Below, piece after piece: positions 1 through 42,929 of a stretch of 64,000 nucleotides of DNA. The notes under the pieces are model-generated. The model searched no databases. It worked only from the letters and a program-made list of their open reading frames with translations, and had not been told where the DNA came from. This DNA comes from Amycolatopsis mongoliensis. GTDB taxonomy: Bacteria; Actinomycetota; Actinomycetes; Mycobacteriales; Pseudonocardiaceae. The stretch is taken from NCBI RefSeq assembly GCF_030285665.1, contig NZ_CP127295.1:7812001-7876000 (forward strand), in the 5' to 3' direction. Position 1 is the first letter of the stretch, and the number at the start of each line of letters is the position of its first letter. Position numbers and translations under genes: made by a program.

Positions 1-593
1 CCTACGACCACCGTCCGCCGCGGGGCCGGCGCCAGTGGCTGCTGGGCCGGATCGCGGCGAAGGACGCCGTCCGCCACCTGCTGTGGGCCGGCGGCGAATC
101 CGAGATGTTCCCGGCCGAGCTGCGGATCGGCAACGACGACGTGGGCCGTCCGCACGCGACCGGGGCGTACGGCCGCGAGCTGCCGTCGCTGACGGTTTCG
201 CTGGCCCACCGCGGCGAAGTCGGGGTGGCGATCGCCCGGCACGGGCGCTGCGGCATCGACGTCGAAGAGGTCGGCCCGCGCGCGGGGTCCACTGTGGACG
301 CCGCACTGGGTGCCGGTGAACAGGCCCTGTTCGCCGGCCTGACCGGCGACCCGGAGCGCTGGTTCGCCCGCTTCTGGACCGCCAAGGAAGCCGTGGCGAA
401 GCTGCTCGGCACCGGCCTGCGCGGTGAGCCCCGGGACTTCGAGGTCATCGCCGCGGCGCCGGACGCGCTCACCGTCCGCGCGGCCGGAGCCGACCACGCC
501 GTGCACTGCGCCGACGTCGACAGCCTTCCCGGCGCGCCGCCGCGCCGCTACGTCGTCGCCTGGACCGAAGAGACGAAGGAGACCGCCGAATGA
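1..593 (+). CDS. 4'-phosphopantetheinyl transferase domain, 5'-truncated (probably the C-terminus of a polyketide synthase)
   Basis: The open frame enters from the left edge (first full codon at position 3) and gives about 196 visible residues. The Sfp/AcpS-type signature is clear: GIDVEEV, then WTAKEAVAK about 40 residues on, supplying the Mg-binding Asp/Glu and the KExxxK lysine. An upstream QWLLGRIAAKDAVR segment resembles the PPTase region fused to the C-terminus of iterative type I PKSs. The stop overlaps the start of a free-standing ACP by 4 bp, so this domain probably loads that ACP (and any PKS carrier domain) with phosphopantetheine. Whether it is a fused domain or a separate protein cannot be decided because the start lies outside the window. 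Confidence 0.85.
   Translation, partial: YDHRPPRGRRQWLLGRIAAKDAVRHLLWAGGESEMFPAELRIGNDDVGRPHATGAYGRELPSLTVSLAHRGEVGVAIARHGRCGIDVEEVGPRAGSTVDAALGAGEQALFAGLTGDPERWFARFWTAKEAVAKLLGTGLRGEPRDFEVIAAAPDALTVRAAGADHAVHCADVDSLPGAPPRRYVVAWTEETKETAE
288..298. repeat. TCCACTGTGGA iterated palindrome, copy 1
   Basis: Perfect 11-bp palindrome (extends to GTCCACTGTGGAC at 287-299) inside the PPTase coding region, encoding Ser-Thr-Val-Asp with the uncommon Thr codon ACT. Four further copies lie at 4283, 7674, 22339 and 42919. Confidence 0.6.
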
Positions 594-895
594 GCATCGA
601 GACCACGGCCACGGACGAGGCGACCGTCCTCGCGCAGCTCAGCGGCATGCTGCAGGAGCTGCTCGAGGAATACGGCCTCGACGACGCCGAGATCACCATG
701 GAGACGACCTTCCACGACGACCTCGAGCTGGAGAGCGTCGACCTGGTGGCCCTGTCCGGGCAGCTGCGCGAGCACTACGGCGAGCGCGTCAACTTCGCGA
801 CGTTCATCGCCGAGCGCGACCTCGAGGAGATCATCGCGCTGACGGTCGGCGAGCTCGTCCGCCACATCGTCGCCTCGCTGCGGGCGACGGCGTGA
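590..895 (+). CDS. Free-standing acyl carrier protein
   Basis: 101 residues, acidic, with the carrier-protein fold pattern. The phosphopantetheine site is Ser49 in LELESVDLV, a variant of the DSL motif in which Glu replaces Asp. Its ATG overlaps the preceding PPTase stop (ATGA) and its own stop overlaps the next gene (GTGA), so it is translationally coupled on both sides. It is expected to carry the growing or finished acyl chain for the upstream synthase and to present it to the hydrolase encoded next. The C-terminal half (FATFIAERDLEEI) is typical of discrete PKS/NRPS-type ACPs rather than of the housekeeping fatty-acid AcpP. Confidence 0.88.
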   Translation: MSIETTATDEATVLAQLSGMLQELLEEYGLDDAEITMETTFHDDLELESVDLVALSGQLREHYGERVNFATFIAERDLEEIIALTVGELVRHIVASLRATA

Positions 896-1698
896 GCCGG
901 ATCCGCGCGGGCGAGCTGGACGTGCACGTCCAGCGCCTGACCCCGGAGGTGCCGCTCGACGGGGACGCGCCGATCGTCGTGTGCGTGCACGGGCTGCTCA
1001 CCGACAGCCTCGCCAGCTACTACTTCACGCTCGGCCCGGCGTTCGCCGAGCGCGGGCTCGACGTGCTGATGTACGACCTGCGCGGGCACGGCCGCACGAC
1101 CCGCCCGGAGTCCGGCTACCACCTGGAGGAGTTCGTCGGCGACCTCGTCGCGGTCCTCGACGCGACGGGCGTCACGCGGCCGGTGCACGTCGTCGGCAAC
1201 TCGTTCGGCGCGTCGGTGGCGTTCGGGCTGGCCGCGGCCCGGCCGGACCGGGTCGCCAGCGTCATCGTGATCGAAGGCGAACCGCCGACGCAGGAGTGGA
1301 CGCGGCACATGGCCGACGGGCTCGCCGACGCGAAGACCCGGCTGGCGATCGACGAGGTGATCGGCTGGATCGCCGACAACCACGGCGCGCACACCGCGCG
1401 GCTGTCGAAGGCGGCGAACAAGATCCTCCAGACCACCACGATCGCCGAGGACATCCCGCGCAGCGCGACGATCGCCGCCGACCTCTCGGCCGTGCGCTGC
1501 CCGGTGTTCGCGATCTTCGGCGGCGATTCGGGACTCTCCGCGCAGGTGCCGCACTTCGAGTCGCACCTGGACCCCTGCCGCTGTGTCGTGCTGCCCGACC
1601 AGGGTCACTCGGTACTGGTCGAGCGGACCGCCGAGACGATCGACCTGATCTTCGACTGGGTCCGCGACACCTCGCGCGTCCCGGCCCGGGTGCGGTAG
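892..1698 (+). CDS. Alpha/beta-fold hydrolase (thioesterase-like), PKS cassette
   Basis: 268 residues from a GTG that overlaps the ACP stop by 4 bp. Oxyanion-hole HG at about residue 33, nucleophile elbow GNSFG with Ser104, acid in the FGGDSG segment and a late GHSVLVE histidine make a complete Ser-Asp-His triad. The position directly after PPTase and ACP suggests a role as chain-releasing or editing thioesterase for the ACP-bound product; this is inference from context. No signal peptide is visible, so it is cytoplasmic. Confidence 0.85.
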   Translation: MSRIRAGELDVHVQRLTPEVPLDGDAPIVVCVHGLLTDSLASYYFTLGPAFAERGLDVLMYDLRGHGRTTRPESGYHLEEFVGDLVAVLDATGVTRPVHVVGNSFGASVAFGLAAARPDRVASVIVIEGEPPTQEWTRHMADGLADAKTRLAIDEVIGWIADNHGAHTARLSKAANKILQTTTIAEDIPRSATIAADLSAVRCPVFAIFGGDSGLSAQVPHFESHLDPCRCVVLPDQGHSVLVERTAETIDLIFDWVRDTSRVPARVR

Positions 1699-2867
1699 TG
1701 GCCCGGTTCCTGTTCGTCGTCCCGCCGCTGGTCGGGCACGTCAACCCGGCCGCCGGCGTCGCGGCCGAGCTCGCCGCGCGCGGGCACGAGGTCGCCTGGG
1801 CCGGCCACGAGGAGCTGCTGTGGCAGCTGGCCGGCCCGGCCGCGCTCGTCTTCTCCTGCGGCGTGCCGGCCGGCGCCCCGGAGCGCCCGGCCGGGCTCAA
1901 GGGACCGGCCGCGCTGCGGTTCCTCTGGGAGGACTTCCTCGTCCCGCTGGCCGACGCGATGGCCCCCGGCGTGGACGCCGCGATCGACGCGTTCGCGCCG
2001 CACGTCGTGGTCGCCGACCAGCAGGCGCTGGCCGGCGGGCTGCTGGCCGAGGCCCGTGGCCTGCCGTGGGTGACCTCGGCGACGACGTCGGCCGAGCTGA
2101 TCGACCCCCTTTCGGGCATGCCGAAGGTCGCGGAGTGGGTCGATGCGCTGGTCGATGATCTGCGCGCGCGGATCGCCGATGGCCGTGGCTCGGCGGACCC
2201 CCGGTTCTCGCCGCACGGCGTCCTGGCGTTCACCACCCGCGAGCTGCTGGGTGCGGCGCCGCTCCCGCCGCGGGTGCGGCTCGTCGGGCCGGCGCTGGGT
2301 TCCCGTCCGTCCACATCGGACTTCCCATGGGAGTGGCTCGACCCCTCTCGGCCGACGGTGCTGGTCTCCCTGGGCACGGCCAACACCGATGCGGGCGCGA
2401 GCTTCCTCGCGACCGCGGCGGAGGCGTTCGCCGGGATGGACGCGCGGGCCGTCGTCGTCGACCCCGGCGAGGTGCTTGGCGCGGTGCCGCCGAACGTCCT
2501 GGTGCGCCCGCGGGTCCCGCAGCTGCCGCTGCTGCCGCGGGTGGACGCCGTGCTGTGCCACGCGGGCCACAACACGGTGTGCGAAGCGCTGTGGCACGGC
2601 CTGCCGCTGGTGGTGGCCCCGATCCGCGACGACCAGCCGATCGTGGCGGCCCAGGTGGTGGCCGCGGGCGCGGGCATCCGGCTGCGCTTCGTCCGCGCCG
2701 GCGCGGACCGCATCGCGGCGGCGGTCGAGGAGGTGCTCACCGAGCCGTCGTACCGGCGGGCGGCCGAGACCGTGGCGACGTCGTTCCACGCGGCGGGCGG
2801 AAGTGCCGCGGCGGCCGGGCATCTGGAACAGCTCGCGCTCGAAAGCCTCGCCCGTCTGAAGCCGTGA
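1698..2867 (+). CDS. Glycosyltransferase, GT1/MGT family
   Basis: 389 residues, GTG start sharing one base with the preceding stop. The N-terminus (FVVPPLVGHVNPAAGVAAEL) has the acceptor-domain GHxxP pattern, and the C-terminal nucleotide-sugar signature HAGHNTVCEALWHGLP falls near residues 285-302, followed by DDQP. This is the usual GT-B layout of macrolide- and zeaxanthin-type glycosyltransferases. As the last gene of the PPTase-ACP-hydrolase cassette it probably glycosylates the released polyketide. No deoxysugar genes are visible nearby, so the donor may be a common UDP- or dTDP-hexose. Confidence 0.88.
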   Translation: MARFLFVVPPLVGHVNPAAGVAAELAARGHEVAWAGHEELLWQLAGPAALVFSCGVPAGAPERPAGLKGPAALRFLWEDFLVPLADAMAPGVDAAIDAFAPHVVVADQQALAGGLLAEARGLPWVTSATTSAELIDPLSGMPKVAEWVDALVDDLRARIADGRGSADPRFSPHGVLAFTTRELLGAAPLPPRVRLVGPALGSRPSTSDFPWEWLDPSRPTVLVSLGTANTDAGASFLATAAEAFAGMDARAVVVDPGEVLGAVPPNVLVRPRVPQLPLLPRVDAVLCHAGHNTVCEALWHGLPLVVAPIRDDQPIVAAQVVAAGAGIRLRFVRAGADRIAAAVEEVLTEPSYRRAAETVATSFHAAGGSAAAAGHLEQLALESLARLKP

Positions 2868-2911
2868 AAGCGGCATTTACTTCGAAAAAACACGCGGTTA
2901 CGGTGCTGGGT

Positions 2912-3376
2912 ATGACTGTTTCCGTCGATGTCACCGAAGAAGTCCCGGAACTCGTCAAGTCCGCCGAAGCGTTGTTCGCCGAGGACGCGGGGAGCCACGA
3001 CCCGCGCATGGACCTCGGCTGGCCGGCCCGTGAGGGCGCGGCCTACTACCAGGACCTCGTCGAGGACGAGAACGCCCTCTGCCTGCTGGCCCGCTCGGAC
3101 GGCGCGGTGGCGGGCCACCTGATCGGCCGCTTGCTGCCGGTCAGCTCCCTGCGTCCCGGCGCGGTGCGGGCGGTGCTGGAAAGCATGCGGGTCGCGGCGG
3201 AGCGCCGTCGCGAAGGCGTCGGGGAGGCGCTCGTGGCCGCGTTCGTGGCGTGGGCCAAGGAACGGGGGGCGAACGAGCTGGCCGTGCAGGCGTACGCGAA
3301 CAACGAGGGCGCGCTGGCGTTCTACCGCGCGCAGGGGTTCGAGCCGTTCGAGGTCAGGCTGGGCCGGGCGGTGTGA
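2912..3376 (+). CDS. GNAT family N-acetyltransferase
   Basis: 154 residues. The acetyl-CoA loop RRREGVGEALV and the later ANNEGALAFYRAQGFEPFE segment are diagnostic of the GNAT fold. ATG 2912 is the first in-frame start after the glycosyltransferase and gives a normal family length. The substrate is unknown; the family covers protein N-termini, amines and antibiotics. A 44-bp A/T-richer spacer separates it from the PKS cassette, so it may have its own promoter. Confidence 0.82.
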   Translation: MTVSVDVTEEVPELVKSAEALFAEDAGSHDPRMDLGWPAREGAAYYQDLVEDENALCLLARSDGAVAGHLIGRLLPVSSLRPGAVRAVLESMRVAAERRREGVGEALVAAFVAWAKERGANELAVQAYANNEGALAFYRAQGFEPFEVRLGRAV

Positions 3377-4282: not shown

Positions 4283-4293
4283 TCCACAGTGGA
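4283..4293. repeat. TCCACAGTGGA iterated palindrome, copy 2
   Basis: Intergenic copy, 42 bp upstream of the MFS start codon, so it could also overlap that gene's promoter. Confidence 0.6.
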
Positions 4294-7328: not shown

Positions 7329-8279
7329 ATGGCGCAGAAGTCGGCGGCGGTGGAACTGGAGGTCGGCCCGCACACGGTGCGGATCTCGAACCCGGACCGG
7401 GTGTACTTCCCGGCCCGCGGCGAGACGAAGCTCGACCTGGTCAACTACTACCTCTCTGTGGGCGACGGCATCGTCAACGCGCTGCGCGAGCGGCCGTGCA
7501 TGCTGCACCGCTTCCCGTCCGGGGTGGCCGGGGAGAAGGTCCACCAGAAACGCGTCCCGAACGGCGCGCCGCCGTGGCTGGAGACCGTCCGCGTGACCTT
7601 CCCGCGCTACCACCGGCACGCCGACGAGCTGTGCGTCACCGAACTGGCCCACGTCATCTGGGCGGTCCAGATGTCCACAGTGGAGTTCCACCCGTGGAAC
7701 TCGCGCCGCGGCGACACCGAGAAGCCGGACGAGTGGCGGATCGACCTCGACCCGATGCCCGACTGCGGCTTCGACCGCGTCCGCCGCGTCGCCCATGTCG
7801 CGCACGAGATCCTCGACGAGCTGGGCGCGGTCGGCTGGCCCAAGACCTCCGGCGGCCGCGGCCTGCACATCTACGTCAGGATCGAGCCCCGCTGGGGCTT
7901 CAAGGAGGTCCGGCGCGCCGCCCTGGCCTTCGCGCACGAAGTCGAACGCCGTGCCCCGGACGACGTCACCACGACCTGGTGGCGCAAGGACCGCGATCCG
8001 CGGCTGCTCTTCGTCGACTACAACCAGAACGCGCGCGACCACACGATCGCGAGCGCCTACTCGGTCCGCGGCAACCCGGAAGGCACGGTCTCGACGCCGA
8101 TCCAGTGGGAGGAGATCGACGACGTCGAGCCCGGTGACTTCACCATCGCCACCGTCCCGGCCCGCTTCGCCGAACTGGGCGACCTCCACGCGGGCATCGA
8201 CAAGGCCGTGTTCTCCCTGGACCCGCTGCTGGAGTGGGCCGACCGCGACGGCGTCGAAGAACCACCCGAACCCGACTGA
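7329..8279 (+). CDS. Stand-alone LigD-type polymerase/primase domain (NHEJ)
   Basis: 316 residues covering exactly the polymerase domain of bacterial LigD: N-terminal VRISNPDRVYFP, the metal-binding WRIDLDPMP, then SGGRGLHIYV and DYNQNARDHTIASAYS. It is an archaeo-eukaryotic-primase-fold enzyme that adds nucleotides during non-homologous end joining and takes part in translesion or gap filling. No ligase domain, nuclease domain or ku gene is adjacent, so this is one of the split LigD modules common in actinomycetes. An iterated palindrome copy lies within the gene. Confidence 0.92.
   Translation: MAQKSAAVELEVGPHTVRISNPDRVYFPARGETKLDLVNYYLSVGDGIVNALRERPCMLHRFPSGVAGEKVHQKRVPNGAPPWLETVRVTFPRYHRHADELCVTELAHVIWAVQMSTVEFHPWNSRRGDTEKPDEWRIDLDPMPDCGFDRVRRVAHVAHEILDELGAVGWPKTSGGRGLHIYVRIEPRWGFKEVRRAALAFAHEVERRAPDDVTTTWWRKDRDPRLLFVDYNQNARDHTIASAYSVRGNPEGTVSTPIQWEEIDDVEPGDFTIATVPARFAELGDLHAGIDKAVFSLDPLLEWADRDGVEEPPEPD
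7674..7684. repeat. TCCACAGTGGA iterated palindrome, copy 3
   Basis: Inside the LigD-type polymerase gene, encoding Ser-Thr-Val-Glu with the rare Thr codon ACA. Confidence 0.6.
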
Positions 8280-8332: not shown

Positions 8333-8378
8333 GTCGTGAGTGTTTAGGAGGGTTAGAACCCTCCTAAACACTCACGAC
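8333..8378. terminator. Perfect 22-bp-stem palindrome between convergent genes
   Basis: Arms 8333-8354 and 8357-8378 are exact reverse complements around an AG loop, beginning GTCGTGAGTGTTTAGG. It sits between the convergent polymerase and thiolase genes and is more A/T-rich than its surroundings. A bidirectional terminator is the simplest reading. The length and perfection also suit a dispersed intergenic palindromic repeat, testable only against the whole genome. Confidence 0.7.
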
Positions 8379-8383
8379 GGGGG

Positions 8384-15386: not shown

Positions 15387-15989
15387 CTAGGCACGAGGCG
15401 TCACGAGGAGCTTGAGCACGTCGCCGAAGAGCGTCGGCGGGACGGCCGACGGATCGACGCCGCGTTCCACGGCGAGGCCGTTGGACAGCGCCAGCACGAC
15501 CACCGCGAGGTGCTCCGGTGCCAGGGGGAGGTCGACGCCGTGCAGGGCGGCGGCCTTGCTGATCGCCGCGGTGACGGCGTCGCGCAGGCGGGCGCGGCGC
15601 TCGGCGAGTCCGCTGTGGACGGTGGGGTTCCGCATCGCCAGGCCCCAGTACTCGAGCAGCAGCCGGTGCCACGTGGCGTCGGAGTCGATCCCCGCCAGGA
15701 GCCGCGCGCCGGCCTCGGTGGTGGCCTCGTCGAGGTCGGCCAGCTCGGCGAACACCGTCGTGGCGCGGTCCATCCGCTCGACCATGTGCTCTTCCATGAT
15801 CGTCAGCACGAGGTCGTCGCGGCCGGTGAAGTTCGAGTAGACGGCGCCCTTGGTCAGCCCGGCCTCCGCGGCGATGTCGTTCAGCGACGTCGCGGCGATG
15901 CCCTGGCGGGCGAACACCGCGGTGGCGGCGTCGATGATCCGCCGCCGGGTCTCGGCGCGGCTCGGGCGGCGGCGCTGGGGGCCGGTCAT
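15387..15989 (-). CDS. TetR/AcrR family transcriptional regulator
   Basis: 200 residues from ATG 15989; an upstream TTG would add three. The N-terminal helix-turn-helix is canonical: RRIIDAATAVFARQGIAATS, then SLNDIAAEAGLTKGAVYSNF. The C-terminal ligand domain is unassigned. A perfect palindrome GATACCG-GT-CGGTATC lies 80 bp upstream, between this gene and the decayed lipase on the other strand, and is the likely operator. Confidence 0.9.
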   Translation of the reverse strand: MTGPQRRRPSRAETRRRIIDAATAVFARQGIAATSLNDIAAEAGLTKGAVYSNFTGRDDLVLTIMEEHMVERMDRATTVFAELADLDEATTEAGARLLAGIDSDATWHRLLLEYWGLAMRNPTVHSGLAERRARLRDAVTAAISKAAALHGVDLPLAPEHLAVVVLALSNGLAVERGVDPSAVPPTLFGDVLKLLVTPRA

Positions 15990-16459: not shown

Positions 16460-18769
16460 ATGTCGAACCCTTCCCTTCCGCCCTCGCGCCGCACCTTCCT
16501 CAAACTCGGCGGCGCGGTCGGCGCCGGGATCGCCCTCAGCGGCGTTCGTCCTTTCACGGCAAGCGCAGACGTCGTCCGCCCGGCCGGTGCGGAGCTCGTT
16601 CCCGACAGCCGGGCGACGACGCTGTGGTACCCGGCGCCCGCCGTCGAGGACAAGATCATCGAGCAGGGCCTGCCGATCGGCAATGGTCGGATCGGTGCCC
16701 TCGTCGGCGGGGACCCGGCCGCCGACTTCCTCTACCTGGCCGACGCGTCACTGTGGACCGGCGGCGCCAACGACGTCCTCGAGGACGACGGCCAGTTCCC
16801 TTACGAGCGCGAGAAGTTCGGCACCCTCGGCCTGCTGGCGAAGGCGCGGATCTCCGTGCCCGCGCACACCGGCGTGACGGACTACCGCCGCACGCTCGAC
16901 CTGAGCAACGGCGTCGTCGTGATCACCTACCGGCACCAGGGCGTCCGGTACCGCCGTGAGTACTACGCGAGCCACCCCGACGACGTCGTGGTCGTCCGGC
17001 TCAGCGGTGGTCCGATGACCGGGTCGGTCTCGCTGGAACCCACCCGGGGCGAGACGATGGCCGGCCCGGCGGCGTTCACCGGCACCTTCGGCAACGGCCT
17101 GAAGTACGCGTGCGCCGTGGCCGGTGGCGTGACGTTCAGCGGGAGCCGCGAGGTCGTCATCGTGCTCAGCGGCGGCACCAACTACGTGCCCGACGCGGCA
17201 CGGAAGTTCCTCGACACGTCGCTCGATCCGCTGGCGCTGGCGAAGCAGAAGGCGTCGCAGGCGTTGCGTGCCGGGGGAGGCGCGCTGCTGGCCACGCACG
17301 TCGCCGACTACCGGCGGCTCTACGACCGGATGAGCGTCGACCTGGGACAGTCGCCGCCGGCGAAGCGCGCGCTGGACACGTGGTCGCGCCTGCTGGCCCG
17401 GCACGCCGACCCGGCGACACCCGACCCCGAGCTGGAGGCGAGCTACCTGCAGTTCGGGCGGTACCTGACGATCACCGGCTCGCGCGACGGGCTGCCGATG
17501 GGCCTGCAGGGGCTGTGGCAGAACACCAACACGCCCGACTGGATGAGCGACTACCACACCGACATCAACCTCCAGATGAACTACTGGCTGGCCGACCGCG
17601 CGGCACTGCCCGGGAGCTTCACTGCCCTGGCCGACTACTGCCTCGCGCAGCTTCCCGTGTGGACGGACAGCACGAAACGGCTGTTCGACGACCCGCGCAA
17701 CAGGTTCCGGAACACCAGCGGCAAGGTCGCCGGCTGGGCGGTCGCGTTCTCGACCAACGTCTACGGGGGTTCCGGCTGGTGGTGGCACCCCGCCGGCAAC
17801 GCGTGGCTGTGCAACTCGCTGTGGGACCACTACGCGTTCACCCAGGACAAGGCGTACCTCGCACGGATCTACCCGCTGCTCAAAGGCGCGGCCGAGTTCT
17901 GGGAGGCGCGGCTGGTCCCGATGACGGTCGACGGCCGCGAGGTGCTCGTCGACGACCACGACTGGTCACCCGAGCACGGCCCGCAGGACACGCGCGGGAA
18001 CACCTACTCGCAGGAGATCGTCTGGGACCTGTTCGAGCACTACCGCGAAACCGTCGCCGCCCTCGGCCGGGACCGCGCGTACGGCGACCGGATCGCCGGG
18101 CTGCAGAAGAAGCTGTACCTGCCGAAGGTGAGCCCGGCGACCGGCTGGCTCGAAGAATGGATGTCCCCGGACAACCTCGGCGAGACGACGCACCGGCACC
18201 TGTCCCCGCTGATCGGCTTCTTCCCGGGCGACCGGATCGCCGCCGACACCGCACCCCCGGAGTTGCTCGCCGGTGTGCGCGCGCTGCTGGTCGCGCGCGG
18301 GATGGACAGCTACGGCTGGGCGTGCGCGTGGCGGTCGGCGTGCTGGGCGCGGCTCAAGGACGCCGACAAGGCGTACCAGCTGCTGCTCACGGTGCTGCGG
18401 CCGTCGGTGGCGAACGGCAACGGGACGGCGCCGAACTTCTTCGACATGTACAGCCAGGGCAGCTACACGATCTTCCAGATCGACGCCAACCTCGGCGCCC
18501 CGACGGCGATGGCGGAGATGCTCGTGTACTCGCGGCCGGGAGTGCTGGAACTGCTGCCGGCGCTGCCTTCGGCGTGGGCCCGGTCGGGCCGGGTGACCGG
18601 GATCGGCGCGCGCGGCGGCTTCGAGGTCGACCTGGCGTGGCGCGACGGGAAGGTGACGCGGGCGGTGGTCCGGAGCGTCGGCGGGACCCGCACGGAGGTG
18701 CGCGCGGGCGGCTGGCGTCGCGCGATCACCCTGCGGCCGGGGCAGTCGGTCACGGTCCAGCCAAGTTGA
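16460..18769 (+). CDS. Secreted GH95-family glycosidase (alpha-L-fucosidase-type)
   Basis: 769 residues. A twin-arginine signal (SRRTFLKLGGAVGAGIALSG) starts 9 residues in, so Tat export is predicted. After it come the GH95 N-terminal signatures TTLWYPAPA, EQGLPIGNGRIGALVGG and DASLWTGGAN. The (alpha/alpha)6 catalytic part contains NTNTPDWMSDYHTDINLQMN, DHDWSPEHGPQDTRG and TYSQEIVWDLF, and the C-terminal beta domain begins near GVLELLPALPSAW. The family hydrolyses alpha-1,2-fucosides and some alpha-galactosides of glycans and plant polysaccharides. The ATG at 16460 has only a weak ribosome site. Free-standing transcription unit. Confidence 0.9.
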   Translation: MSNPSLPPSRRTFLKLGGAVGAGIALSGVRPFTASADVVRPAGAELVPDSRATTLWYPAPAVEDKIIEQGLPIGNGRIGALVGGDPAADFLYLADASLWTGGANDVLEDDGQFPYEREKFGTLGLLAKARISVPAHTGVTDYRRTLDLSNGVVVITYRHQGVRYRREYYASHPDDVVVVRLSGGPMTGSVSLEPTRGETMAGPAAFTGTFGNGLKYACAVAGGVTFSGSREVVIVLSGGTNYVPDAARKFLDTSLDPLALAKQKASQALRAGGGALLATHVADYRRLYDRMSVDLGQSPPAKRALDTWSRLLARHADPATPDPELEASYLQFGRYLTITGSRDGLPMGLQGLWQNTNTPDWMSDYHTDINLQMNYWLADRAALPGSFTALADYCLAQLPVWTDSTKRLFDDPRNRFRNTSGKVAGWAVAFSTNVYGGSGWWWHPAGNAWLCNSLWDHYAFTQDKAYLARIYPLLKGAAEFWEARLVPMTVDGREVLVDDHDWSPEHGPQDTRGNTYSQEIVWDLFEHYRETVAALGRDRAYGDRIAGLQKKLYLPKVSPATGWLEEWMSPDNLGETTHRHLSPLIGFFPGDRIAADTAPPELLAGVRALLVARGMDSYGWACAWRSACWARLKDADKAYQLLLTVLRPSVANGNGTAPNFFDMYSQGSYTIFQIDANLGAPTAMAEMLVYSRPGVLELLPALPSAWARSGRVTGIGARGGFEVDLAWRDGKVTRAVVRSVGGTRTEVRAGGWRRAITLRPGQSVTVQPS

Positions 18770-21651: not shown

Positions 21652-22407
21652 GTGCCCGCGACCACGTTCCTGTTCGTGCCCGGCGACCGGCCCGACCGCT
21701 TCGGCAAGGCCGTGGGCAGCGGCGCCGACGTCGTGATCCTGGACCTGGAAGACGCCGTCGCCCCGGCGGACAAGGACACCGCTCGCGGCCACGTCGAGGC
21801 CTGGCTCGAGACCAGCCAGGCCTTGGTCCGGATCAACGCCCCGGGCACGCCCTGGTTCGACGCCGACGCCGCCTTGGTCACCGCCCGCGGAGTCCCGGTG
21901 GTCGTGCCGAAGGCCGAGACGCCCGGGGTACTTGCCGCCTTCCGCGAGGTCGTGGCCCTCGTCGAGACCGCGCGAGGCGTCGAACGCGCGGGTGAGCTGG
22001 CCGCCGTCCCGTCGGTGACGCGCCTGGCGTTCGGCAGCGTCGACCTGGCCGCGGAGCTCGGCGTCGCGCCCGAAGACCCGGAGCCGTTCGCCTACGCGCG
22101 CTCGCGGCTGGTGATCGCGTCGGCGGCGGCCGGGCTGGCACCGCCGGTGGACGGCGTCACGACGGACCTGCGCGACGACGAACGGCTCGAGGCCGACGTC
22201 CGCTGCGCGCGCCGCATGGGCTTCGGCGGCAAGCTGTGCATCCACCCGCGCCAGGTGGAGCCGGTCCGTGCGGGCTTCGCGCCGACTGAGGCCGAGCGCG
22301 AGTGGGCCCGCAGCGTCCTCACGGCGGGCGCGTCGGCGTCCACTGTGGACGGCCGGATGGTCGACAGGCCGGTGCTCGTCCGGGCCCGGCGGATCCTGGG
22401 GGAGTGA
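21652..22407 (+). CDS. HpcH/HpaI (CitE-like) CoA-ester lyase
   Basis: 251 residues from GTG 21652. FLFVPGDRPDRFGKAVGSGA and DVVILDLEDAVAPADKD are the N-terminal CitE signature (Arg and Asp/Glu for the acyl-CoA carboxylate and Mg). PKAETPG, FGSVDLAAELG and GGKLCIHPRQV complete the TIM-barrel motifs. These enzymes cleave or form malyl-, citramalyl- or related CoA thioesters. The GNAT gene follows after 4 bp. An iterated palindrome lies near its 3' end. Confidence 0.9.
   Translation: MPATTFLFVPGDRPDRFGKAVGSGADVVILDLEDAVAPADKDTARGHVEAWLETSQALVRINAPGTPWFDADAALVTARGVPVVVPKAETPGVLAAFREVVALVETARGVERAGELAAVPSVTRLAFGSVDLAAELGVAPEDPEPFAYARSRLVIASAAAGLAPPVDGVTTDLRDDERLEADVRCARRMGFGGKLCIHPRQVEPVRAGFAPTEAEREWARSVLTAGASASTVDGRMVDRPVLVRARRILGE
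22339..22349. repeat. TCCACTGTGGA iterated palindrome, copy 4
   Basis: Near the 3' end of the CoA-ester lyase gene (extends to GTCCACTGTGGAC, 22338-22350). Encodes Ser-Thr-Val-Asp, as copy 1 does. Confidence 0.6.
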
Positions 22408-26340: not shown

Positions 26341-27379
26341 ACCCGGCCAAGGCCTCCAGCAGCAGCGAACCCCGCCGGTCGGTGTCCTCGGGTTGCAGCT
26401 CGCTCGTCGTGAACGAAAACCCCAGTTCCGCCTCCGGCCACGCGCCGTGCCGCCCGCCGCCCGCGCCGGAGTGGCCGAACGCCGCTCGCGCCGGCCCGTA
26501 CGTTCCCAGCGAGTCGGGCAGCTCGTACCCCAGGCCGAAATGGACCGGGCGGTCGTTGATCGCGTCGATGCCCGACGACCACGTCGACGTCGCCGCCGAC
26601 AGCACCGGACGCGGGAGCAGGCCCGCGCAGATCCGGTCGTACAGCCGGGCCATCGCCGCCGCCGTGCCCGTCGCGCCGCCCGCGGCCAGCTCCGCCCGGC
26701 GGTACGCGGCCGAGTTGATCGTGTCCGGCTCCAGCAGCCCGCGATACATCTTCTCCACGACGCGACGCCGGCCGGGATCGCGCAGGAACGTGCTGATCCG
26801 GTAGTCCGGCGACCGCGTCAGCCGCGCGACGCGGTGGTCCTCCGACGCCGGTGTGCCGAGGTGGATGTCGGCGTCGCCCAGCAGCGAGCGCACCACCGCG
26901 CCCGCGGACCGGCCCGTCACCCGCCGGATCAGCTCCGTGCACAGGTACCCGTAGGTCGCCGCGTGGTAGGCGACCCGGGAACCGGGTGTCCACAAGGGAC
27001 GTTGCGCCGCGAGGGCGCGGGCGTTCGCCCGGTTGTCGAGGAAGGACACGTCCGCCTCGACGTACGGCAGGCCCACCGTGTGGGACAGCACGTGCGACAC
27101 GTCCCCCGAGGGGAACTCCGGCCAATACCGCGAGACCGGCGAGGCGGGGTCGATCAGCCCACGGGCGTGGAGCAACGCCATCACCGTGGCCACGACCCCC
27201 TTGGTCCCGGAGAACAGCACGACGAGAGTGTCCCGCGCCCAGCCCGGCCCGCCCCACAGCTCGACGAGCACCTCGCCCCGCCGCACGACGCTGAACGCCG
27301 CCCCGCCGGCGGTCCGCTCCAGCACGGTGGCGAACGCGTCCCGCACCGGCTCGAACCCCGGCGCCACCGAACCCTTCAC
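26333..27379 (-). CDS. Serine hydrolase, beta-lactamase/EstB-like family
   Basis: 348 residues. Catalytic SxxK motif is Ser57-Gly-Thr-Lys60 (LFSGTKG), the second motif is YHAATYGYL, and FGHSGAGGG stands for the KTG box, as in class-C-like esterases. No signal peptide, so it is intracellular and not a resistance enzyme. GTG 27379 overlaps the ABC ATPase stop by 4 bp, making it the last gene of the carnitine-type operon. It could hydrolyse an ester of the imported substrate, such as an O-acylcarnitine, before oxidation; that is inference from position. Confidence 0.85.
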   Translation of the reverse strand: MKGSVAPGFEPVRDAFATVLERTAGGAAFSVVRRGEVLVELWGGPGWARDTLVVLFSGTKGVVATVMALLHARGLIDPASPVSRYWPEFPSGDVSHVLSHTVGLPYVEADVSFLDNRANARALAAQRPLWTPGSRVAYHAATYGYLCTELIRRVTGRSAGAVVRSLLGDADIHLGTPASEDHRVARLTRSPDYRISTFLRDPGRRRVVEKMYRGLLEPDTINSAAYRRAELAAGGATGTAAAMARLYDRICAGLLPRPVLSAATSTWSSGIDAINDRPVHFGLGYELPDSLGTYGPARAAFGHSGAGGGRHGAWPEAELGFSFTTSELQPEDTDRRGSLLLEALAGCL

Positions 27380-30779: not shown

Positions 30780-32339
30780 TCACACCTCCCCGCTCGTGCC
30801 GAGCCACGCGTTCCGGAACTGGTAGCCGCTCAGCGAGATCCCGGTGCGGTCCGGGACGAGCCCGGCGACGTACCTCTGGTGGGCGTCGACCTGGTTGACG
30901 AAGCCCCACACGATCAGGCCGCCACGCTCGTACTCGATCTTCTGCGCCTGTTCCAGCAGGCCCGCGCGCGCGACGGGGTCCACGGTGGCCCCCGCGCGGG
31001 TGACCAGGTCGACGAACTCCGGGTCCTGCCAATGGGTCTCGTTGTACGGCGACTTCGGCAGCGAGCCCGCGGCGACCTGGGGGAGGTAGTTGCGCGTATA
31101 CCAGAAGTCCTGCGCGAAGTCCCAGGACAGGTAGTTCTCGCCGTAGAACGTCGTGGTGTCGAGCTTGCGGATGCGGACGGTGATGCCCGCCGCCTTGGCC
31201 TGCTGCTGGAACACCTGGGCCGCCTCCACCGCACCCGCCTGGATCGGCGCGGTGACCAGCTCGACGTCCAAAGTGGAGTGACCGGCCTCGGCCAGCAGCC
31301 GCTTCGCCGCGTCGAGGTCCTGCCTGCGCTGGGGGAGGTCCTTCGCGTACGCGGGGTCGAACGGCGCGTAGAGGTCGTTGCCGAGGCGGCCCTGTCCGCT
31401 GAGGACCTGGTTGATCATCTGCTCCCGGTCGACGACCAGCCGCATCGCCTGGCGCACGCGGACGTCGTCGAACGGCGGCCGGTCGACGCGCATGGTGAAC
31501 GGCAGCCACGTGCCCGTCTCGGCCGCGAGGACCTCGATGCGCGGGTCGCTGCGCAGGACGTCGACCAGGGCCACCGGCACCTGGTCGATCGCGTCGACCT
31601 GGGCGGAGAGCAGCGCGTTGATGCGGGCGTCGTCGTCGGCGAAGTTGATCAGCACCAGCTCGTCGAGGTAGGGCTGCCCCGGTCGCCAGTAGTGTTCGTT
31701 GCGGCCGAACGTGCTCTGCCGCCCGGCGGTGAACGAGCCGGCCTTGAACGGGCCGGTCCCGATCGGGCGCTTCAGGTCGAAGTCCGCCGGGACGATGCCG
31801 AGGGAGTACTGGCCGAGCAGGTCGTCGAAGCCCGCGTTCGGCGTGTTCAGCCGGAACTCGACGGCCCGGTCGCCGCTCGGCACCACCTCGGCCAGCATGG
31901 TCAGCCCGGCCGCGCCGCTCTTGGGGTCCTTCGGGTCCATGATCCGCTTGAACGTGGCGACGACGTCGGCCGGTGTCACCGGGCGGCCGTCGTGGAACTT
32001 GACCCCGTCGCGCAGGACGGCGGTCCACGTCCGGGCGTCCGGCGACGCCGTCAGCGACCGCGCGACCAGGAACTCCGGCCGGTAGTCGTGGTCGCGGTTC
32101 AGCAGGGGCTCGTAGAGGTTGATCACCCGCGCGATGTCCGGGTTGGTCGCGGGAGTGTGCGGGTCGAGGGTGTCGGACGCGCCACCGCCGGTGACGCCGA
32201 CGCGCAGCCGGCCGCCTGAGCGGGGTGGCCCGGTCGGCACCGGCGCGGCGTACGTCGTGCCGCACCCGGCGGCCAGCAGCGTGACCCCGGTGGCGGCGAG
32301 AAACCTGCGGCGGGTGAAGGGACTGCATCGCTCTTCCAT
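30780..32339 (-). CDS. Substrate-binding lipoprotein of the Dpp-type ABC importer
   Basis: 519 residues, SBP_bac_5 (cluster C) family. FTRRRFLAATGVTLLAAGCG combines a twin-arginine with an LAAGC lipobox, so Tat-exported lipoprotein anchoring is predicted. Family landmarks are LYEPLLNRDHDYRPEFLVAR, WTAVLRDGVKFHDGRPVT, then RPIGTGPFKAGSF. It sits 33 bp after the thioesterase and immediately before its permeases. Its genetic partners are carnitine-pathway enzymes, so the ligand may be carnitine, an acylcarnitine or a carnitine-containing compound instead of a peptide. Confidence 0.93.
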   Translation of the reverse strand: MEERCSPFTRRRFLAATGVTLLAAGCGTTYAAPVPTGPPRSGGRLRVGVTGGGASDTLDPHTPATNPDIARVINLYEPLLNRDHDYRPEFLVARSLTASPDARTWTAVLRDGVKFHDGRPVTPADVVATFKRIMDPKDPKSGAAGLTMLAEVVPSGDRAVEFRLNTPNAGFDDLLGQYSLGIVPADFDLKRPIGTGPFKAGSFTAGRQSTFGRNEHYWRPGQPYLDELVLINFADDDARINALLSAQVDAIDQVPVALVDVLRSDPRIEVLAAETGTWLPFTMRVDRPPFDDVRVRQAMRLVVDREQMINQVLSGQGRLGNDLYAPFDPAYAKDLPQRRQDLDAAKRLLAEAGHSTLDVELVTAPIQAGAVEAAQVFQQQAKAAGITVRIRKLDTTTFYGENYLSWDFAQDFWYTRNYLPQVAAGSLPKSPYNETHWQDPEFVDLVTRAGATVDPVARAGLLEQAQKIEYERGGLIVWGFVNQVDAHQRYVAGLVPDRTGISLSGYQFRNAWLGTSGEV

Positions 32340-33723: not shown

Positions 33724-34609
33724 GGACACGCTCCTTCAGGCCGAGGATCTCGCGGGCCCGGGAAGCGCTTACCACCGTGGCGCCGAGATCCTGGACGATG
33801 CCGACGGCGCGTTCGACGAGCTGGCCGTTGGTGGCTTTGACGCCCTTCGCCAGGTAGAGGTTGTCCTCCAGGCCGACCCGGACGTGCCCGCCGAGGAGCA
33901 CCGACTGCGCCACCCACGGCATCTGGTCCCGCCCGATCGCGAACGACGCCCACTGCGCGCCGCCGGGCAGCAACCGCACCATCGCCTGCAACAGCCCGGG
34001 GTCGGCGGGTGCGCCGTAGGGGATGCCCATGCAGAGCTGGAACAGCGGGGGAGCGTCGATCAGGCCCTCTTCGACCATTTTGGACGCGAACCAGAGGTGC
34101 CCGGTGTCGAAGATCTCCAGCTCGGGTTTGACGCCCAGCTCCTGGATCCGCTTGGCGCCGGTGCGCAGCATGTCCGGAGTGGACACGTACAGCTGGCTGC
34201 CCTCGCCGAAGTTGAGGGAGCCGCAGTCGAGGGTGCAGATGTCCGGCAGCAGCTCTTCTACGTGCGGCAGGCGATCCATCGCGTTGACGAGGTCGGTGCC
34301 GTCGACCGGCTTGAGCGGGTCTTCCTGGTCGATCACCAGGTCACCGCCCATGCCCGCGGTCAGGTTGACGACGACGTCCACATCGGACTCCTTGACCAGC
34401 CGCACGACCTCGCGGTAGAGCGCGACGTCCCGCGAGGGTCCGCCGGTTTCCGGGTCGCGGACGTGGATGTGCACGACGGCGGCACCGGCGTTCGCGGCCT
34501 CGACGGCGCTCGCGGCGATCTGCGCTGGCGTGACGGGGACGTGCGGGCTCCGGCCGACGGTGTCCCCGGCCCCGGTGAGGGCACAGGTGACGATGACCTC
34601 GTGGTTCAT
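33716..34609 (-). CDS. BKACE / dehydrocarnitine cleavage enzyme (CdhC-like)
   Basis: 297 residues of the beta-keto acid cleavage enzyme family: [13 protein letters not shown], then zinc-binding [33 protein letters not shown] and [20 protein letters not shown]. With acetyl-CoA it would convert 3-dehydrocarnitine to betainyl-CoA and acetoacetate. Directly upstream of carnitine dehydrogenase and only 8 bp after the regulator gene. Confidence 0.92.
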
Positions 34610-35582: not shown

Positions 35583-35584
35583 GG

Positions 35585-39582: not shown

Positions 39583-39742
39583 ACAGGGTGAACACCGACT
39601 CCGGCGTCGGGAGCCACACGGAGGAGGCTGCCTGGACCGGCGATGCCAGCAAACCCAGCCGGGCCGGCCCAGGCCGCGCCGCGGCCGGTGAGGCCGTCTC
39701 GATGAGTTGTGGTCGGTACGCGGCGGACGGCCGGTGGCTCGA

Positions 39743-40159
39743 TCAAGTGGTTGTGGGGCCCTGCGGCTTCGCCGGGTTCGTGGCCTCCGGGATGAAAGTC
39801 AGCCGTGGTGCCGCCCTCGAGAAGATCCGGACGTGGCCCCAGTCTCCGAAGATCTCGTAGTGATCGGCGTGACGCTGGAGGCTGTCGATGTTGCCGAGGT
39901 CTTCTTCGCCGGTGGCGTCGCGGTAGGTCTGGGACGACCGCGTGATCCATTCGATCTTCGTGGCGTCGGCGATGGTCAGCACGGCGTCCGCATAGCAGTG
40001 CGCTTCACCCGGTCGCGGCTGGTGATAGCGCGGGTGTGCCTGGGTCAGCACGGCTTCCAGCCGGAAGGACAGCGAGGTGGGTGTCTCGTCGATGCCGAGG
40101 ACGAAGCTGTCTTCGAGGTAGACGTTGGCGAGGTCGGGGAAGTCGGTGTAGTTCGTCAT
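39743..40159 (-). CDS. Probable immunity protein of the polymorphic toxin
   Basis: 138 residues, acidic, no signal peptide. It opens MTNYTDFPDLANVYLEDSFV, then LSFRLEAVLTQAHPRYHQP and HYEIFGDWGHVRIFSRAAPR, a beta-rich small protein. The start is 3 bp after the toxin stop, and the gene is last in the SseB-WXG-toxin operon, the standard place for an immunity gene. Assignment rests on position and size. Confidence 0.7.
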   Translation of the reverse strand: MTNYTDFPDLANVYLEDSFVLGIDETPTSLSFRLEAVLTQAHPRYHQPRPGEAHCYADAVLTIADATKIEWITRSSQTYRDATGEEDLGNIDSLQRHADHYEIFGDWGHVRIFSRAAPRLTFIPEATNPAKPQGPTTT

Positions 40160-40162
40160 GTG

Positions 40163-41380
40163 CTAGTGGTCCCAGGTGATCGGTGTGTGGTTTCCCAGGC
40201 TCTTCCTGGTGACCGGGTTGCCTTGCGGGTCGATGCGGACCCCGTCCTCGTTGCGCAGTTCGACGTGGGGGTTCTCGCTCCCCGGGGCGCGGCCGCTGCC
40301 TTCCTTGAGGGTCATCCGTACGATGCCGTTCTCGTCGACGTATTTCGGCGGGCCGTTCGGGGTCTGCTGTTTCGTCCAGCCCTTGGACTCGGCGTAACGC
40401 GCCAGATCGGAGGCCTTCGGCGGTGCACCCTGGTCGAAGTACTCGTTCAGGGCAGCCTTCACCGGCGGTAGTTTCGGCGCGGCCGGGTCGGCTCTTTCTC
40501 CTGCTCGGGTGCCTTTGAGCAGCTTGCCTGCCGCGCCGCCGATGAGCAGGCCGCCGAGGATCTGGCCGGTGGCCCGGCCGGGGTGGTCGGCCCAGTCGTC
40601 CCAGGCGATGAGGTTCTTGCCGAAGTCCACGGGGTGGGTGACTTTGTGCCATGCCGCCGAGGCGATGTCGGTCAAGCCGTCGTGGTCGGGGTTGCCGGGG
40701 TCGCCGATGGCGTAGACGAGGTTCCACACGCCTTCGCCGAACCCCTTGAACGCGTTCCAGGCGCCTTCGCCGAAGTCGGCGAAGAAGCCGCCGACGTCGT
40801 CGAGCCAATCCGAAGCCGTGGGTGCGCCGCCGGCCTCGTCGGAAATGGTCTCTGTGGTCCGGTCCCCGGCTTCGGTGAGCTGCTGGCGGGCGCGGTTGAG
40901 CGTGTCCCGCGCCGCCAGCCGGTCGGCCTCGCCGGGATCGGAGAACGGCGCGACCGTCACCCGCGTGGGGTCACCGTTGGCTGCGTGCTGCCGATTCTGG
41001 GTGTCGGCGTTGGTGACGTCGCGGTCATAGCGGGCCTTCGCGTCCGCCGTTGCGGCCTGCCCCTGATTCCACAGCCGAATGGCGTCGCTCGCCTGCCCCT
41101 GCGCCCAGCGGAGCGTCTGCGCATATCCGTCGAGCGCTTCGGCGACCGCGTCGAACGAGTCGGAGGCGGCCAGCCACTTGGCCGGTTCGTAGCTGAACTT
41201 GTCGTGGAACTTGGCTGCGGCCGGACCGGCCCACGAGCCGGTGTCGATCCGGCGGAGGCTGTCCCCGGCCTGTCCGGTTCCCCGGGCCCGGCCGTGCAGG
41301 ACCCGGGCGTTCTCCTCGATCGCGGCCGGGTCGCCGGGGACCAGGGCGCGCGGATCTGCGGTCTCGCCGAGTTCGGCCAT
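40163..41380 (-). CDS. Polymorphic toxin with WXG-like N-terminus and C-terminal toxin domain
   Basis: 405 residues. The N-terminal about 130 residues (PGDPAAIEENARVLHGRARG, then DTGSWAGPAAAKFHDKF) match T7SS WXG-type export domains. A linker containing DWLDDVGGFFADFGEGAWNA and a glycine-rich GQILGGLLIGGAAGKLL segment leads to a C-terminal about 80-residue domain. Its pattern, NPHVELRNEDGVRIDPQG, NPVTRKS and NHTPI, recurs at the ends of many actinobacterial Rhs/T7 toxins. Conserved His/Arg suggest a nuclease, but the activity is unknown. Shares one base with the WXG gene stop. Confidence 0.78.
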   Translation of the reverse strand: MAELGETADPRALVPGDPAAIEENARVLHGRARGTGQAGDSLRRIDTGSWAGPAAAKFHDKFSYEPAKWLAASDSFDAVAEALDGYAQTLRWAQGQASDAIRLWNQGQAATADAKARYDRDVTNADTQNRQHAANGDPTRVTVAPFSDPGEADRLAARDTLNRARQQLTEAGDRTTETISDEAGGAPTASDWLDDVGGFFADFGEGAWNAFKGFGEGVWNLVYAIGDPGNPDHDGLTDIASAAWHKVTHPVDFGKNLIAWDDWADHPGRATGQILGGLLIGGAAGKLLKGTRAGERADPAAPKLPPVKAALNEYFDQGAPPKASDLARYAESKGWTKQQTPNGPPKYVDENGIVRMTLKEGSGRAPGSENPHVELRNEDGVRIDPQGNPVTRKSLGNHTPITWDH

Positions 41381-41703
41381 CAGTCACCGATCGCGGCGGT
41401 GCCGGGATCCGCAGGAAGTTGCCGCGCAGCCGCCTCGTCGATTCCCCGATAGGCGTCAGCGGCGTGCGTGAGGCAATCGCCGATCACGCCGGCGTCCTGG
41501 GTCAGCGTGTCCAGGCCGGCGCTCCACCGCGCGCAGTAGTCCGCCAGCGCGTTGTGCACGCCGGCATGACCGTAGAGTTCGGCATCGCCGCACAGGCCGC
41601 GCAACGCGAACGTCTCCTGGTCATGGACACTCTGGGTGATTCCCTTGCCCGCGTTGTCCAGTACGTCGACGTCGACATGGAACCCGGGCCCGTCCACACT
41701 CAC
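41380..41703 (-). CDS. WXG100/ESX-like small protein
   Basis: 107 residues, mostly helical: VDVDVLDNAGKGITQSVHD, then YGHAGVHNALADYCARWSAG and DAGVIGDCLTHAADAYRGID. The ARWSAGLD turn stands where WXG100 proteins have W-x-G. It is likely the heterodimer partner or export helper of the toxin. GTG 41703 overlaps the SseB-like gene by 4 bp, and its stop shares one base with the toxin ATG. Confidence 0.75.
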   Translation of the reverse strand: MSVDGPGFHVDVDVLDNAGKGITQSVHDQETFALRGLCGDAELYGHAGVHNALADYCARWSAGLDTLTQDAGVIGDCLTHAADAYRGIDEAAARQLPADPGTAAIGD

Positions 41704-42152
41704 TCGGCGCCCTCCTCGCGCTTGCCCCTGACCTCGTCGCTGGGCATGCCATGCCCGGTTCGTTTCTGCTCGGCTCGGCGGCGTATCGCCGCGAGAGCCT
41801 GCGGCGGCACCATCCGATTCAGAATCGGGAGCCGGTGCTCGTCATCTGGATCGAGCATCACGCCGAGACCGATCGGCAGCTGTTCGAGAAGATCGCCCCC
41901 GGTGGTCGCATAGAAGGCGCAATCTCCGAAGTGCGCGGCGAGCCGCTGCGGCGTGGAGAACACGAACGTCCATCGACCACGGCCGGCAACGTCGACCGTC
42001 TCGACACCGGGGCGAGCAGGTCGTCGCCCGTAGACCGTCGCCCGGGCGAACACCGCATCGAACTCGTGTAGACCCCGCCGACCAGACACCACATCCTGTG
42101 CGCACACGGCCACAAAAGGGTCACCTTGTGCTTCCGCGCCTCCCCCTTGCAT
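41700..42152 (-). CDS. SseB-like N-terminal domain protein
   Basis: 150 residues. The pattern TFVFSTPQRLAAHFGDCAFY, then ATTGGDLLEQLPIGLGVMLD is that of the SseB N-terminal domain family, found across actinobacteria beside T7SS effectors. First gene of the toxin operon. ATG 42152 is the first start after the low-GC segment. It may be a chaperone or targeting factor, but no function is established. Confidence 0.7.
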   Translation of the reverse strand: MQGGGAEAQGDPFVAVCAQDVVSGRRGLHEFDAVFARATVYGRRPARPGVETVDVAGRGRWTFVFSTPQRLAAHFGDCAFYATTGGDLLEQLPIGLGVMLDPDDEHRLPILNRMVPPQALAAIRRRAEQKRTGHGMPSDEVRGKREEGAE

Positions 42153-42185
42153 GGCTATGAGTGTACTAACCGCTGCAAACAGTGA

Positions 42186-42347
42186 CAGCCTGGCGGCGGT
42201 CAGCGGGGCGCCGCCGTGGCAGCGATCTGCACTGGTCGTGATCGCGTCCGCACCGGACTGGTAGCCGCGAGTACGGCACCAGCGCTGGTAGTGCACTAGC
42301 CGGTGGCGGTAGCACGCGAGCGTCTTGCTCGAGTACTCCCGCACCAT
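42186..42347 (-). pseudogene. Possible N-terminal fragment of a tyrosine recombinase
   Basis: About 50 codons reading VREYSSKTLACYRHRLVHYQ and then RWCRTRG resemble the core-binding (SAM-like) start of an integrase, where a helix with TLxxYxxxLxxF is typical. No catalytic domain follows. Low confidence, but the setting beside a toxin island and a GC drop fits integrated DNA. Confidence 0.3.
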
Positions 42348-42918
42348 CGACGGGCGCAGGTCACTATCGGAGCTCAAGAGACGCCTGCCGGATGACGGAG
42401 TTCGCGGGCCTAAACACGGATCTGGGGTGCCATCAACAGCGCGTGAAATCGACCGCCAGGTTCAACGAGGCACGTTCATCACGGGTGGCACGGAGGACAG
42501 GCATTCCCAATGTCGACTGGATATGGCTGACACCCACCAGTATCACGCCCTTCTTCTATCAAAATACCTGACATTGAGGACTTGCCCCCAGGTGTCCACT
42601 GCTGCCCGTGGGTCCTGTGCGGCAGATCGCAGCGTGGACCCCCTGCGTGGTGGGCGGGTCAACTTTGTCGAGTCGAAGCCATGGTCTGTGACGAAACTGG
42701 AAAAGCTCGTTCTTGTTCGATGTTATCTCGCCGAGATGAATAAGCTCCGGATAGCCCTCCTATCAGCGGCTCGCTGGATCACTCCATCGACGTTACCTGC
42801 ATTTCGATGGCGCCGGCGTCCTGTGCCTAGAAATTGACAAGAAAGGCATCGTGTAGCACTCGGTTGACGGCGGACGGCTCACCGGTGGCAGTTGGCTGGC
42901 CGCTGGCGTGGCATCCCG

Positions 42919-42929
42919 TCCACAGTGGA
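42919..42929. repeat. TCCACAGTGGA iterated palindrome, copy 5
   Basis: Intergenic copy within the gene-poor segment, 340 bp before the M20 peptidase. Confidence 0.6.

Follow-up and report, generated by a model that had tools for sequence, protein, structure and literature searches.

The 64-kb window analyzed here, by which we mean the whole stretch from position 7,812,001 to 7,876,000 of contig NZ_CP127295.1 of Amycolatopsis mongoliensis, contains five exact copies of the palindrome TCCACWGTGGA (W denoting A or T), a word that recurs throughout this chromosome and for which we propose a small PadR-family protein, encoded outside the window, as candidate reader. An earlier interpretation of the same DNA, here called the sequence-only reading, had noted copies at 288, 4283, 7674, 22339 and 42919, had divided them into three genic and two intergenic, and had judged their number far above chance; every coordinate was correct, our gene calls gave the same division, and 100 dinucleotide shuffles averaged 0.03 copies with a maximum of 1. 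The window region was compared across 13 genus mates and one more distant relative. The first copy (TCCACTGTGGA, 288..298, within the 13-mer GTCCACTGTGGAC), read as TCC ACT GTG GAC in a gene at 3-593, is identical in 7/7 alignable relatives, and the second (TCCACAGTGGA, 4283..4293), intergenic, about 30 bp past one gene and 35 bp ahead of the next, is identical in 8/8. The third (TCCACAGTGGA, 7674..7684), read as TCC ACA GTG GAG in a gene at 7329-8279 that we label LigD-like from its translation, keeps the motif in 9/9 alignable relatives, with a central A in five and T in four, and the fourth (TCCACTGTGGA, 22339..22349), again TCC ACT GTG GAC, in a gene at 21652-22407, keeps it in 7/7, two of them as TCCGTTGTGGA. 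The fifth (TCCACAGTGGA, 42919..42929) stands in a 1.5-kb stretch without a called gene and has an alignable counterpart in 0/14 relatives.

The single-contig genome of 10.81 Mb holds 350 exact palindromes against 0 copies of the reversed word used as control, and the core TCCNNWGTGGA was found 900 and 884 times on the two strands (reversed word, 12 and 16), or at 1434 distinct places once double-counted palindromes were removed (28 for the reversed word). Within a 1.664-Mb sample made up of the window and 80 stretches of 20 kb, the palindrome had the top z-score among 11-mers with at least 20 copies under an order-4 Markov model, with 52 sites against 0.30 expected, so that the genome-wide check suggested by the sequence-only reading came out well above expectation. 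Like HIP1 (highly iterated palindrome 1, GCGATCGC) of cyanobacteria, to which that reading had likened it, TCCACWGTGGA is short and palindromic and recurs genome-wide in one lineage, far over Markov expectation; it is a genuine highly iterated motif.

The exact palindrome proved to be the strongest version of a wider site, GTCCNNWGTGGAC, and the description of the motif as a palindrome was accurate only for this strong form of a longer, partly asymmetric element. The half-sites TCCAC and GTGGA are spaced strictly by 1 bp (57 sites, against 0-7 at any other spacing between 0 and 20). In palindrome context, 104/114 matches have A or T at the centre, and where TCC stands upstream, the base before GTGGA is A or T in 285/362 strand-wise matches (79%), compared with 28% for GTGGA alone. 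A G before and a C after the palindrome are each present in 37/51 sites, and wobble positions inside the 13-mer change at 0.066-0.089 per comparison whereas flanking ones change at 0.15-0.28; this flank preference and lowered substitution over 13 bp define the full site as the 13-bp GTCCNNWGTGGAC, one half of which may be degenerate (down to TCCNN). The central wobble position changes at 0.27 per comparison, 112/284 of the changes being swaps between A and T, and no conserved flank was found outside the 13-mer in the sampled sites. Two 6-bp half-sites around one A/T resemble the operator of a dimer.

Conservation was counted pairwise among the window genome and its genus mates, pairs that share ancestry and hence are not independent: the wider motif was kept at palindromes in 318/339 comparisons (centre unchanged in 258, swapped between A and T in 70, changed to G/C in 11), and G/C-centred look-alikes were kept in 26/184. 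In comparisons from the window genome, motif centres at a third codon position remained A/T in 51/55 cases, against 33% of 6331 for ordinary third-position A/T. Judged from these alignments, the palindrome sites are held by selection across Amycolatopsis relatives, within genes too, and the retention in relatives that had been named as a check on the sequence-only reading was borne out. That the motif is real and selected we regard as virtually certain.

The site leaves its imprint on codons and on proteins. With genes called by a purpose-written script, 43/52 sampled palindromes fall in genes, 34 of the 43 in the frame TCC ACW GTG GA, which is also the frame of the three genic copies in the window. 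The rare Thr codons that the sequence-only reading saw as forced are present at those copies, but they are a single instance of a general wobble rule, since the central A/T falls mostly on a wobble position and yields GAT, GAA, ATT and TAT besides Thr codons. Ser-Thr-Val followed by Asp or Glu is spelled TCC ACW GTG GA in 34/54 cases, where codon usage predicts 0.38%, and the codon effect depends on the second residue, Asp, Glu and Tyr showing it strongly and Ala, Arg and Leu weakly. Asp or Glu stands after Ser-Thr-Val in 54/177 cases vs 310/2680 after other X-Thr-Val (p 1e-10), and Ser-Thr-Val-Asp is the most over-represented tetrapeptide among those tested (40 vs 11.7). Codon choice and protein sequence here both reveal selection for a DNA site, a point relevant to gene design in Amycolatopsis and a caution on treating synonymous sites as neutral. 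At the LigD-like gene, Ser-Thr-Val-Glu is encoded in 78/80 named genomes and spelled as the palindrome in 20/39 Pseudonocardiaceae and 3/41 other genomes; by genus, the 20 Pseudonocardiaceae are 15/21 Amycolatopsis, 4/4 Kibdelosporangium and 1/1 Actinocrispum. One record in this set, Streptomyces sp. SID13031, groups with the Kribbella records at this gene, both in codon pattern and in rank, and is possibly misnamed.

A conserved gene of the window has its best protein matches in Amycolatopsis records, with 98% identity to A. iheyensis. Palindromes were found in 79/79 same-genus genomes searched (84-485 each), number 4 to 717 in ten genomes from the family's other genera and are mixed in other families of the order; in 396 phylum-wide genomes, among the matches listed, all but the window's own have 0-5. 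All 22 Pseudonocardiaceae counted genome-wide hold 61-382, including those without a palindrome at the LigD-like locus, and of the 12 counted among the 41 genomes outside the family, the three with a palindrome at that locus have 253, 28 and 27 and the other nine 0-8. The genome with 253, a record titled Rhodococcus rhodnii NRRL B-16535, measures 12.4 Mb, has a padR gene sharing 79% identity with the one in the window genome and is probably mislabelled. A virus collection was scanned with a 14-base seed, the counts being valid within contigs and giving no collection totals, and contigs were picked on purpose (long ones and four already known to be multi-copy), so that they serve as examples and not rates. 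A W-centred seed selected 35 contigs, among which the 68.6-kb, phage-like IMGVR_UViG_3300045391_001876 (G572) has 12 palindromes, another has 5 and a third 4; with a G/C-centred seed, 14/15 contigs have no palindrome and one has 3. In the contig with 5, the likewise phage-like IMGVR_UViG_3300044446_000019 (G598), all lie within 2.1 kb, clustered near one end, and close palindrome pairs occur in three contigs (G572, G597, G620). A tblastn search with two phage-contig proteins matched phages at less than 60% identity, and the hosts best listed for these phages are other bacteria. The contigs suggest that some phages of motif-bearing hosts may also carry the site.

Along the chromosome, parS sites place oriC at 2.38 Mb and GC skew turns near 8 Mb, which puts the window close to the terminus. 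Spacing is Poisson-like (coefficient of variation 0.96 for 95 palindromes in the first 2.9 Mb), and wide sites number 90-222 per Mb in every 0.8-Mb bin of the sample; exact palindromes, with their small numbers, are more unevenly spread (0-70 per Mb). Since wide sites are present in all bins, a matS-type or otherwise origin- or terminus-restricted motif was rejected, matS sites being confined to the terminus. Polarity of the Chi or KOPS type was likewise rejected, with 99 asymmetric sites co-oriented with replication vs 82 (hand-summed from bins); by absolute direction, the same one led in both chromosome halves, 52 vs 28 and 54 vs 47. A Noc-type ParB paralogue was dismissed as well, the single PF17762 (HTH_ParB) match in the window genome, at 2.383 Mb, lying beside parS at 2.380-2.381 Mb. 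Wider sites that could be classified (n=231) were genic in 200 cases and intergenic in 31, non-coding DNA being 12.5% of the sample, and no pull toward gene ends was seen, 15/200 genic sites lying within 100 bp of a start. DNA aligning to at most one relative has 6 palindromes in 209 kb, vs 34 in 388 kb shared with at least seven, shared sites being counted in several genomes.

The candidate reader comes from genomes with 2-4 copies, where three places have a pair of palindromes 33-41 bp apart, chosen by this spacing before any neighbouring gene was known. In 3/3 cases the pair is found where a divergent gene begins, and all three genes belong to one PadR subfamily; Pfam names PadR for 2/3, and the third protein shares 53% identity with the first (185 columns) and was found by the PadR of the window genome at E 1e-27. 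In the window genome a single close relative of these proteins was identified, 165 amino acids long and encoded outside the window (G000:C1:1085023-1085517, minus strand), with prfB, ftsE, ftsX and smpB as neighbours, named from their translations, and a hairpin-like sequence between padR and prfB. It matches the winged-helix domain PF03551 at 32.2 bits (cut-off 27), and 37 aligned homologues have a mean column identity of 78% with an invariant TRSQVYREL, at a position that we take to be the PadR recognition helix. An AlphaFold2 model (predicted local distance difference score, pLDDT, 85; predicted template-modelling score, pTM, 0.72) gave 28 Foldseek matches in the PDB at E <= 0.001 and the PadR fold, the best being Bacillus subtilis PadR on operator DNA (5x11) and Mycobacterium tuberculosis Rv0047c, which is NapM (8jxk), and Rv1176c (8ioi). 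Upstream of its own gene lie GTCCACTGTGGAC, about 106 bp away, and, closer to the start, GACCACTGTGGAC and AGCCACAATGGAC, 22 bp apart. When the 271 bp upstream of padR were searched in 21 genomes for A/T-centred 13-mer matches with at most two mismatches, 16/21 had a match (background 4-7%) and 11/21 two or more (background 0.4% or less); a pair 21-22 bp apart just before the coding start recurs in Amycolatopsis and several other genera.

Gene and motif also occur together across genomes. In a pool of 110 (40 + 70), with an orthologue defined by E <= 1e-37, 33/34 genomes with at least 10 palindromes have the PadR orthologue, G102 being the exception, and below 10 palindromes it is present in 14 genomes and absent from 62; put the other way, 62 of the 63 genomes that lack it stay below 10. 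For these counts (33/1/14/62), the Fisher p of 8e-16, uncorrected for kinship, overstates the association, because the E limit was set after seeing a gap between 1e-37 and 1e-31 and because the genomes are related. More distant subfamily members (E 1e-24 to 1e-31) are present in 9/62 of the orthologue-less low-copy genomes. The ratio of the wider motif over control runs from 3.0 to 102 in 29 orthologue-bearing genomes and from 1.0 to 2.6 in 7/9 orthologue-less ones, the others being G095 (5.0) and G102 (6.4). On the operator pairs, the promoter sites and this co-occurrence, the 165-amino-acid PadR is very probably the reader of the motif.

We propose that the 13-bp GTCCNNWGTGGAC would be the operator of this dimeric winged-helix protein, multiplied in Pseudonocardiaceae and some other Mycobacteriales to tens to hundreds of exact palindromes and, in several genomes, to more than a thousand wider sites. 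Purifying selection holds these sites at synonymous positions and even through a preference for Ser-X-Val-Asp/Glu. PadR regulators act on their own promoter and a few others; this dimer may in addition coat the chromosome as a sequence-specific nucleoid-associated protein, NapM-like, while controlling its own promoter through tandem sites. As a whole, a PadR dimer operator multiplied chromosome-wide under selection and read by a nucleoid-associated protein is probably the best explanation; whether its main role is architectural, and not regulatory or titrating, we hold to be evenly balanced. The sequence-only reading of a HIP1-like palindrome as a protein site is supported by iteration, selection and codon usage. 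Of the three classes of protein it had offered, a nucleoid-type one fits best, with PadR as candidate, and the other two fare less well: segregation in the narrow sense (limited to oriC or ter, or strand-polar) is unsupported by the sample, and a pair of 6-bp half-sites about a single A/T does not favour a restriction-modification enzyme (no search for methyltransferase genes was made).

Several observations weigh against this explanation. Non-palindromic wider sites are less well kept (477/714 comparisons), not all of them being conserved in the window (those at 2310 and 31267 are poorly kept), and 19/39 Pseudonocardiaceae have no site at the LigD-like locus. Foldseek TM-scores are modest, at 0.42-0.60 for the 28 best matches. 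No match was found in the 271 bp upstream of padR in G083, G101, G103, G139 and G562, and G103 and G562 have no convincing site there. Palindrome counts stay below 10 in 14/47 orthologue-bearing genomes, and the presence of the gene therefore does not by itself predict how strongly the motif is iterated; seven of these 14, counted for the wider motif, are at 3.0-16 times control. The orthologue was not found in G102, which has 17 palindromes and is 82% complete, nor in G095, whose 5-fold wider-motif ratio rests on small numbers. Phage contigs carry the palindrome, and the motif is therefore not limited to chromosomes.

An alternative that we consider unlikely is that PadR is a nucleoid-occlusion or division factor that, like Noc or SlmA and possibly together with FtsEX, would mark DNA through its bound sites and block or position the septum. 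The adjacency of padR to prfB-ftsE-ftsX speaks for it, though a hairpin-like sequence parts padR from prfB. Known nucleoid-occlusion sites leave out the terminus, whereas here every 0.8-Mb bin, the near-terminus bin of the window included, has 90-222 wide sites per Mb. NapM, a PadR protein of similar fold, is reported to be septal under stress and to interact with DivIVA (PMC13340245), but does not look orthologous. It is also improbable that the protein is simply a global transcription factor whose numerous targets lie both inside genes and between them: PadR proteins are regulators and this one has sites at its own promoter, but only 15/200 genic sites lie near a start and the intergenic share (31/231) is close to that of non-coding DNA. 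Doubtful, too, is a titration device, in which chromosomal sites soak up PadR and autorepression reports DNA content; the even spread, the tandem promoter sites and the large number of sites would suit it, but it needs site number only, and not the site-by-site conservation seen across species at about 80-92% identity. A HIP1-like word made and kept by DNA methylation or repair bias, with the PadR link secondary, is very unlikely. HIP1 is described as an iterated palindrome tied to orphan methyltransferases (PMC4390886), and the word is also found on some phage-like contigs, yet 6-bp half-sites round W, one decaying to TCCNN, are unlike a methylase site of 4-8 bp, and the padR promoter sites, the 3/3 operator pairs examined and the co-occurrence would be left unexplained. 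An artefact of composition or codon bias, or a remnant of mobile elements, can be dismissed, for although genic sites favour one reading frame, the reversed word is absent, 0.3 copies are expected for 52 found, intergenic sites occur too, nothing is conserved past the 13-mer and the centre swaps between A and T.

PadR/LmrR-type regulators have the consensus ATGT-N8-ACAT, which differs from the motif here. They have the fold in common with the candidate; LmrR is reported to combine a palindromic PadR site and autoregulation with local operators at one or two promoters (PMC4534193), whereas this motif is chromosome-wide. NapM of mycobacteria shares the PadR fold and is a homodimeric, nucleoid-associated protein with 573 chromatin immunoprecipitation sequencing sites and extensive genome-wide binding, as reported in PMC13340245, the main text of which is without the words "palindrom-" and "sequence-specific". 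It offers a precedent for a PadR-family nucleoid protein, and the candidate may have a NapM-like role; by sequence, 8jxk matches the candidate at E 0.02 only, with the fold agreeing, which does not suggest orthology. A precedent for a consensus-binding nucleoid protein in actinobacteria may be seen in Gbn, a nucleoid-associated protein of Streptomyces whose consensus is given as GATC followed by (A/T)T (PMC9239103), a different binding site. NdgR, an IclR-family protein with 19 binding loci in Streptomyces coelicolor, has an operator GTCCAC-N3-GTGGAC with the same 6-bp half-sites (PMC4340878). It was rejected as reader, its spacing of 3 having 1 site here vs 57 at spacing 1. HIP1 differs in sequence and phylum, the motif here being of odd length with a W centre and tolerating one degenerate half, and its tie is to methyltransferases whereas the tie here is to a PadR-family protein.

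For iterated palindromes such as HIP1 we know of no agreed protein reader or function. With an iterated motif and a candidate reader from one small gene in cultivable bacteria, why a genome keeps such a word becomes directly testable. We tentatively suggest that a local autoregulator may have turned into a chromosome-wide PadR-DNA network, which would be a new sequence-specific nucleoid or DNA-content-sensing system of Pseudonocardiaceae, the family of vancomycin- and rifamycin-type producers, imitated by some of their phages, which carry the same sites. No publication on the motif or the protein was found in the literature searched, from which most subscription journals are missing, and the exact word matched 27 papers, whose listed titles are not on bacterial genomes.

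The window has 13 places with the 11-bp core of GTCCNNWGTGGAC, and its wider sites vary in how well they are kept among alignable relatives. TCCACATCGGA (half-site TCCAC, W and GGA) at 2310..2320 is weakly conserved, the motif being kept in 2/7, and TCCAAAGTGGA at 31267..31277 is kept in 1/4. TCCGCTGTGGA at 15609..15619 retains its motif form in 2/2, TCCCGTGTGGA at 17653..17663 in 7/10, and a second TCCACATCGGA, at 34377..34387, in 4/4. At 26989..26999 (TCCACAAGGGA), TCCACA..GGA is kept in 4/4, with AG, AC, GT and GA at the two free positions, and TCCGGAGTGGA at 34173..34183 is identical in 4/4. TCCGAAGTGGA at 52173..52183, which encodes Ser-Glu-Val-Asp in a gene at 51921-52637, is identical in 13/14 relatives, the most distant (G087) having GAG instead of GAA.

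Elsewhere in the genome, two modular polyketide synthase genes (1765 and 5274 amino acids; G000:C1:847658-868773) hold seven palindromes, and GTCCACTTCGGAC sites within them recur every ~5.1 kb, about the module spacing; this cluster at 850-868 kb we take as no special locus. Divergent hupS and lsr2-paralogue genes (L031:1500-3250) are separated by 1 kb containing three motif sites, one of them ~71 bp before lsr2, and these sites recur in only part of the relatives. Other repeated words are also present: in the 1.664-Mb sample (L026-L105 and the window), AATGACTCATT occurs in 41 copies against ~0 expected, with flanks TGAATGACTCATTC, and a word family with AACGCCACATTG / CCCAATGTGGC in 39-47 copies, both possibly intergenic repeats or terminators. 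A long inverted repeat, CGTGAGTGTTTAGGAGGGTT...AACCCTCCTAAACACTCACG, lies between two genes at 8333-8379 of the window, and in the G087:C2 sample (L150-L159) a GGAAACC-type unit repeat shows enrichment equal to that of the palindrome.

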